A stretch of DNA of 39,929 nucleotides, taken from the NCBI GenBank assembly GCA_945866215.1, contig CAMBGQ010000015.1, positions 1-39,929 of the forward strand, read 5' to 3'. The DNA is from Opitutus sp. GAS368 (GTDB taxonomy: Bacteria > Verrucomicrobiota > Verrucomicrobiia > Opitutales > UBA953). Below the pieces are notes generated by a model. That model did not search any database, was not told where the DNA came from, and worked only from the letters and a program-made list of their open reading frames with translations. Positions within the stretch are counted from its first letter, which is position 1. Each line of letters starts with the position of its first letter. Positions 11,441 through 13,626 of this stretch are shown here, one piece after another. The position numbers and the translations under genes were made by a program.

Positions 11441-11537
11441 GGAGGGTAATTAGCCCATTTCCGACTGCTGGTCGAGATTTTATCGCCTTGAGCAAGGTCT
11501 TGCTTCCATCAAGAGGTCGGTCTTCATAAGGGTGTTC

Positions 11538-11632
11538 CTTCCTAGTCTTTCCCAGGGGAGTCCGCCACCGGACTGAGATGAGGCTTGGCCTCGAACCCTC
11601 GTACCTGATGCGCTTCGGCGCAATAGGAAGCG
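11538..11632 (+). promoter_or_regulatory. TPP-type (THI-box) riboswitch with a divergent pyrophosphate arm
   Basis: The element lies about 110 bases upstream of thiC. The GGGGAG...P3 hairpin (GTCC/GGAC), the thiamin-pyrimidine pocket CTGAGATG, a P3a-like GAGGC/GCCTC hairpin, AACCCT and ACCTGAT all match the TPP aptamer in order. The second arm reads GCGC-TTCG-GCGC followed by AA then TAGGAAG. In the Escherichia coli thiM aptamer the corresponding junction after P5 is CG (C77, G78, pyrophosphate contacts). A CTTCCTA at 11538-11544 can pair perfectly with TAGGAAG at 11624-11630 and would compete with helix P4, a possible switching pairing. The exact P1 is uncertain. It probably controls thiC expression in response to thiamin compounds. 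Confidence 0.87.
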
Positions 11633-11649
11633 GATTGTGCAGCCCATAA

Positions 11650-13626
<1,977 letters not shown>

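Follow-up and report, generated by a model that had tools for sequence, protein, structure and literature searches.

The window, by which we mean the entire stretch of 39,929 nucleotides that was analysed, carries a TPP riboswitch aptamer 5' of an intact thiC gene, which starts 93 bases 3' of the aptamer end on the same strand (Table 1). The covariance model of RF00059 aligned to it from end to end, and in a genome-wide search with this model it was the sole match above noise (next best 13.3 bits), with no second TPP aptamer found elsewhere in the same genome. When the leader was compared with Rfam at E 10, RF00059 was again the only family that matched. Standing alone above the noise and adjoining an intact thiC, the match is well beyond chance. 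Its score is nonetheless below the RF00059 gathering score of 54.3 bits, which is why a default Rfam scan of the window reported nothing; the aptamer was recovered by an Rfam scan using an E-value threshold instead of the gathering score. The element resembles the TPP riboswitches (THI elements) found 5' of thiC in its full aptamer architecture, its UGAGAU T-loop pocket and its position relative to the gene, and homologues within its genus are as much as 97% identical to it. It differs from the family in its sub-gathering score and in the junction J5/4, which reads AA here and CG in those homologues.

Table 1. Features of the thiC leader and gene (window coordinates)
Feature	Position	Strand	Evidence
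TPP-riboswitch-derived aptamer (RF00059 model 1-105)	11544-11646	+	Infernal 43.1 bits, E 2.7e-7
Pyrimidine-sensing half, canonical	11554-11599	+	Covariance alignment; core invariant in 47 genus sequences
P2 (AGGG/CCCU) and P3 (GUCCG/CGGAC)	within 11554-11599	+	Covariance alignment
T-loop J3/2 (UGAGAU)	11574-11579	+	Covariance alignment
Optional hairpin of the pyrimidine-sensing half	11580-11592	+	Covariance alignment
P4-P5 arm: CCUG, J4/5 AU, GCGC-UUCG-GCGC, J5/4 AA, UAGG	11604-11627	+	Covariance alignment, RNAfold
P4 (CCUG/UAGG)	11604-11607/11624-11627	+	Covariance alignment
P5 (GCGC/GCGC)	11610-11613/11618-11621	+	Covariance alignment
L5 (UUCG)	11614-11617	+	Covariance alignment
J5/4 AA (family consensus CG)	11622-11623	+	Covariance alignment, relatives
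Probable anti-aptamer/antiterminator stem, GGAAGCGG (11626-11633)/CCGTTTCC (11655-11662)	11626-11662	+	Predicted fold; putative role
Attenuator-like hairpin TCCGCG-AACCT-TTC-AGGT-CCGCG, then T-rich stretch	11660-11697	+	Kept in close relatives; weak; putative role
thiC, phosphomethylpyrimidine synthase, 628 aa, intact	11740-13626	+	NCBIfam NF006763 equivalog, 1035.6 bits

Between the aptamer and thiC, the probable anti-aptamer stem formed by GGAAGCGG and CCGTTTCC overlaps the 3' side of the aptamer, and its sequence is kept in close relatives. A leader hairpin of the form CCGCG...CAGGTCCGCGCGGA is likewise kept 3' of the aptamer, both in the window (11626-11697) and in relatives. The segment CAGGTCCG comes close to being complementary to two aptamer strands, ACCTGA of P4 and CGGACTGA of P3 and the T-loop, and for this reason may act as an anti-aptamer. 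The leader resembles an attenuator whose stems exclude one another; the mode of control can only be suggested, since the terminator scan called no intrinsic terminator 3' of the aptamer and the minimum-energy folds of the full leader vary among relatives, giving no single consistent switch model.

The first-pass annotation had described the GGGGAG, AACCCT and ACCTGAT blocks as lying in canonical order, which the sequence confirms, and an arm of GCGC-TTCG-GCGC followed by AA and TAGG, which is also what the RF00059 covariance alignment gives. In this alignment the CUGAGAU T-loop (11573-11579) falls into place together with P2 and P3 and is invariant in the genus, as is the conserved G of J4/5 (G11607, the equivalent of G60), and both P4 and P5 form. 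The pyrophosphate-contacting CG that the family has in J5/4 is replaced by AA, as had been claimed, and the model alignment does not recover it through a different pairing of P5. In the Escherichia coli aptamer C77 and G78 form hydrogen bonds with the pyrophosphate (PMC7824784), whose metal ion is contacted by G60, C77 and G78 (PMC3764141). RNAfold calculations on the isolated P4-P5 arm, made without Mg2+ or ligand, gave a U11609-A11622 pair a probability of 0.991 with AA as against 0 with CG, and placed the closed form of the AA arm 3.2 kcal/mol below the canonical open loop. On this prediction U11609 of J4/5 would pair with A11622 and lengthen P5 by one pair, so that one A.A mismatch would be all that interrupts P4-P5, and the open internal loop that accommodates the Mg-pyrophosphate group would be lost. 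The modelling therefore suggests that AA closes the pyrophosphate pocket rather than reshaping it, and with the pocket predicted to close and the contacts of C77 and G78 lost, normal TPP binding is unlikely.

The comparison of the dinucleotide with that of relatives gave a clear result. J5/4 is CG in 59 of 59 relative aptamers retrieved within the same family and in all 71 further aptamers parsed from the same order, a figure that leaves out 18 aptamers unparsed by the script. When 47 genus sequences were aligned, the other 46 had C at 11622 and G at 11623, and these two positions are the only departures of the window from otherwise invariant aptamer columns. A search of 387 phylum genomes with an AA-type arm pattern hit a single genome, that of the window itself, and viral contigs gave no hit; this pattern demands a GCG-type stem, and AA within a different arm would escape it. 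Of 44 parsed thiC loci drawn from several phyla, with two genus members and further Verrucomicrobiota among them, 40 had CG at the junction. On our reading of the printed sequences, of the other four (L077, L105, L071 and L106), L077 is a parsing error and L105 has CG with an inserted base. A literature search, whose scope did not extend to the 2017 survey of variant classes, found no description of a TPP variant with AA in J5/4. On this sampling both changes in J5/4 are private to this genome, and a shared class of AA variants was rejected, as AA was found neither in the family nor in the order sample, nor by the arm pattern in the 387 phylum genomes. AA strikes a near-universal position, yet as a single-genome change on a terminal branch.

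Two further peculiarities of the element proved to be common among its relatives. The GCGC stem with its short loop is a genus trait that co-occurs with the normal CG, so that the short UUCG-type loop was rejected as part of the variant. In the E. coli TPP aptamer an L5 of UAAU docks on P3, whereas L5 is UUCG here and short across the genus, and docking on P3 may therefore be different genus-wide. The second peculiarity is CTTCCTA (11538-11544), which had been proposed to offer an alternative fold by pairing with TAGGAAG (11624-11630). The complementarity of the seven bases stands, and the 5' end reads GTTCCTT in 44 of the 47 genus sequences; a link to AA does not stand, for 20 of the 21 genus sequences bearing CTTCCTA have the canonical CG, the remaining genus sequences lack CTTCCTA, and the AA itself takes no part in the pairing. 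From this distribution the fold was rejected as part of the variant, and we give almost no credence to a functional alternative fold that accompanies AA. As both occur in CG-bearing relatives, neither the arm nor the pairing explains AA.

The change in J5/4 is known from one genome, and a mistake in the assembly or consensus could not be told apart from it, which counts against a lost or weakened ligand response. A consensus error or strain mixture in the draft assembly, with the organism having a normal CG-bearing TPP riboswitch, is accordingly the main rival to that reading: AA is unique among the 47 genus sequences at two adjacent and otherwise invariant positions, and the assembly is fragmented (97 contigs, 85.5% complete, 1.90 Mb). 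We nevertheless consider it unlikely, since the site is embedded 11.6 kb deep in a contig that spans 39.9 kb or more, the contamination estimate is 0.86% and the stretch is not rich in errors, ThiC keeping every residue that is invariant in 23 other ThiC fragments of the genus. These comparisons give no sign of decay of thiC either, and the gene is under normal constraint.

Based on these observations we propose, with a probability of roughly 55%, that CG was recently replaced by AA on the terminal branch leading to this genome and that the thiC leader is now insensitive or weakly sensitive to TPP. The host is an Opitutales-like Verrucomicrobiota bacterium whose leader descends from an ordinary TPP riboswitch, and the change in J5/4 would have occurred on its own branch, possibly as a single dinucleotide event. 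TPP would then no longer stabilise the aptamer, the antiterminator-like downstream stem would dominate, and expression of thiC would probably be constitutive or respond much more weakly to TPP. AA aside, aptamer, downstream leader and thiC are all intact; with the downstream leader intact, the change would affect sensing and leave the output untouched. The intact positions of pocket and stems are as expected for a very recent loss, and also for an element that still works. A TPP riboswitch in which the two A's, the retained equivalent of G60 and Mg2+ suffice, perhaps at reduced affinity, would account for the intact pyrimidine pocket, P2-P5 and downstream leader, and an A in place of C77 retains an amino donor; against this, no aptamer of the family and order samples deviates from CG and the loop is predicted to be shut by a U-A pair, and we regard a working switch as improbable, ranking it behind an assembly error.

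The first-pass annotation had raised the possibility of a change in ligand preference (thiamin, TMP or HMP) and thought the site 5' of thiC alone suggestive of precursor sensing. A shift in specificity to a thiamin precursor or a pyrophosphate-free form (HMP, HMP-PP, thiamin or TMP) would fit an element with an intact pyrimidine pocket and an altered phosphate pocket that lies 5' of the gene for HMP-P synthase. Validated riboswitch variant classes, however, recur in several species, and AA was seen in no relative of the family, order or phylum sample, so that there is no conserved variant class here; moreover, the predicted effect of AA is closure of the pocket, and thiC is an ordinary target of TPP riboswitches, whose usual placement 5' of this gene is no argument for precursor sensing. 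The genome also has ThiG, TMP-TENI (ThiE-like) and Phos_pyr_kin (ThiD-like) family genes, the thiamin pathway looks ordinary, and with these genes present nothing about it leads one to expect that a precursor is sensed. We accordingly hold such a shift to be very unlikely, and slighter still are the chances of the specific version in which the AA-rewritten pocket of a TPP aptamer now binds a ligand that is unphosphorylated or a precursor (thiamin, HMP) and thereby controls thiC. As no relative examined has AA, nothing in the sequences points to a novel type of sensor. The HMP-PP riboswitch (thiS motif) would be the known parallel for the precursor sensing originally proposed; it is compact and embedded in a terminator (PMC6478431), an architecture unlike that of the present leader with its single match to RF00059 at E 10. 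A loss or weakening of the TPP response is instead reminiscent of the aptamers predicted in diatom THIC genes, which are also TPP-like, linked to thiC and unresponsive to TPP, as this one may be. The diatom aptamers keep their TPP-binding motifs and are conserved across species (PMC9544697), whereas in the present element it is the pyrophosphate motif that has changed, and in a single genome.

If AA is real, the element is a TPP aptamer that has been altered in nature at two bases of the pyrophosphate contact and is otherwise intact, for which the close CG-bearing relatives serve as controls. It would test how strict the requirement for CG is and provide a case of natural loss of riboswitch control, with thiC expression in the species predicted to be uncoupled from TPP. 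The AA variant does not establish a new riboswitch class.

Of the 79 genomes of the family, 58 gave an RF00059 match and 14 pass the gathering score. Most CG-bearing relatives in the genus score just below it, and default annotation consequently misses the aptamers of this genus. Relatives 97% identical to the window's aptamer score about 52-54 bits (52.0 for G071/L028, as against 43.1 here), and the window's genome is close to Opitutia bacterium UBA953 (L034), with about 91% DNA identity over the first 1300 bases of thiC. Throughout the genus (e.g. L009-L033, L114-L134) TPP aptamers have a GCGC P5 with a very short L5 and are without the UAAU loop. About 50 bases 5' of the aptamer a CTTGC block (11500-11528, TTGCTT-17-TTCATA) recurs in almost every genus sequence and could belong to a promoter, though a sigma-70 scan did not call it. 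Two loci from the several-phyla sample depart from the consensus in their own ways: a Pseudomonadota TPP aptamer 5' of thiC (L106, JAKQJM010000028.1) has TG replacing CG in J5/4, and an Acidobacteriota TPP-like aptamer, also 5' of thiC (L071, JAOTWT010000186.1), has an unusually long P5 side (CCCGGGTTGATAACTAGGG) in an extended arm and no clear CG. Finally, two assemblies each contain two TPP aptamers (G064 on contigs C115 and C217, G048 on contigs C42 and C90); the two in G064 come from separate clades of the genus, a hint that the bin is mixed.
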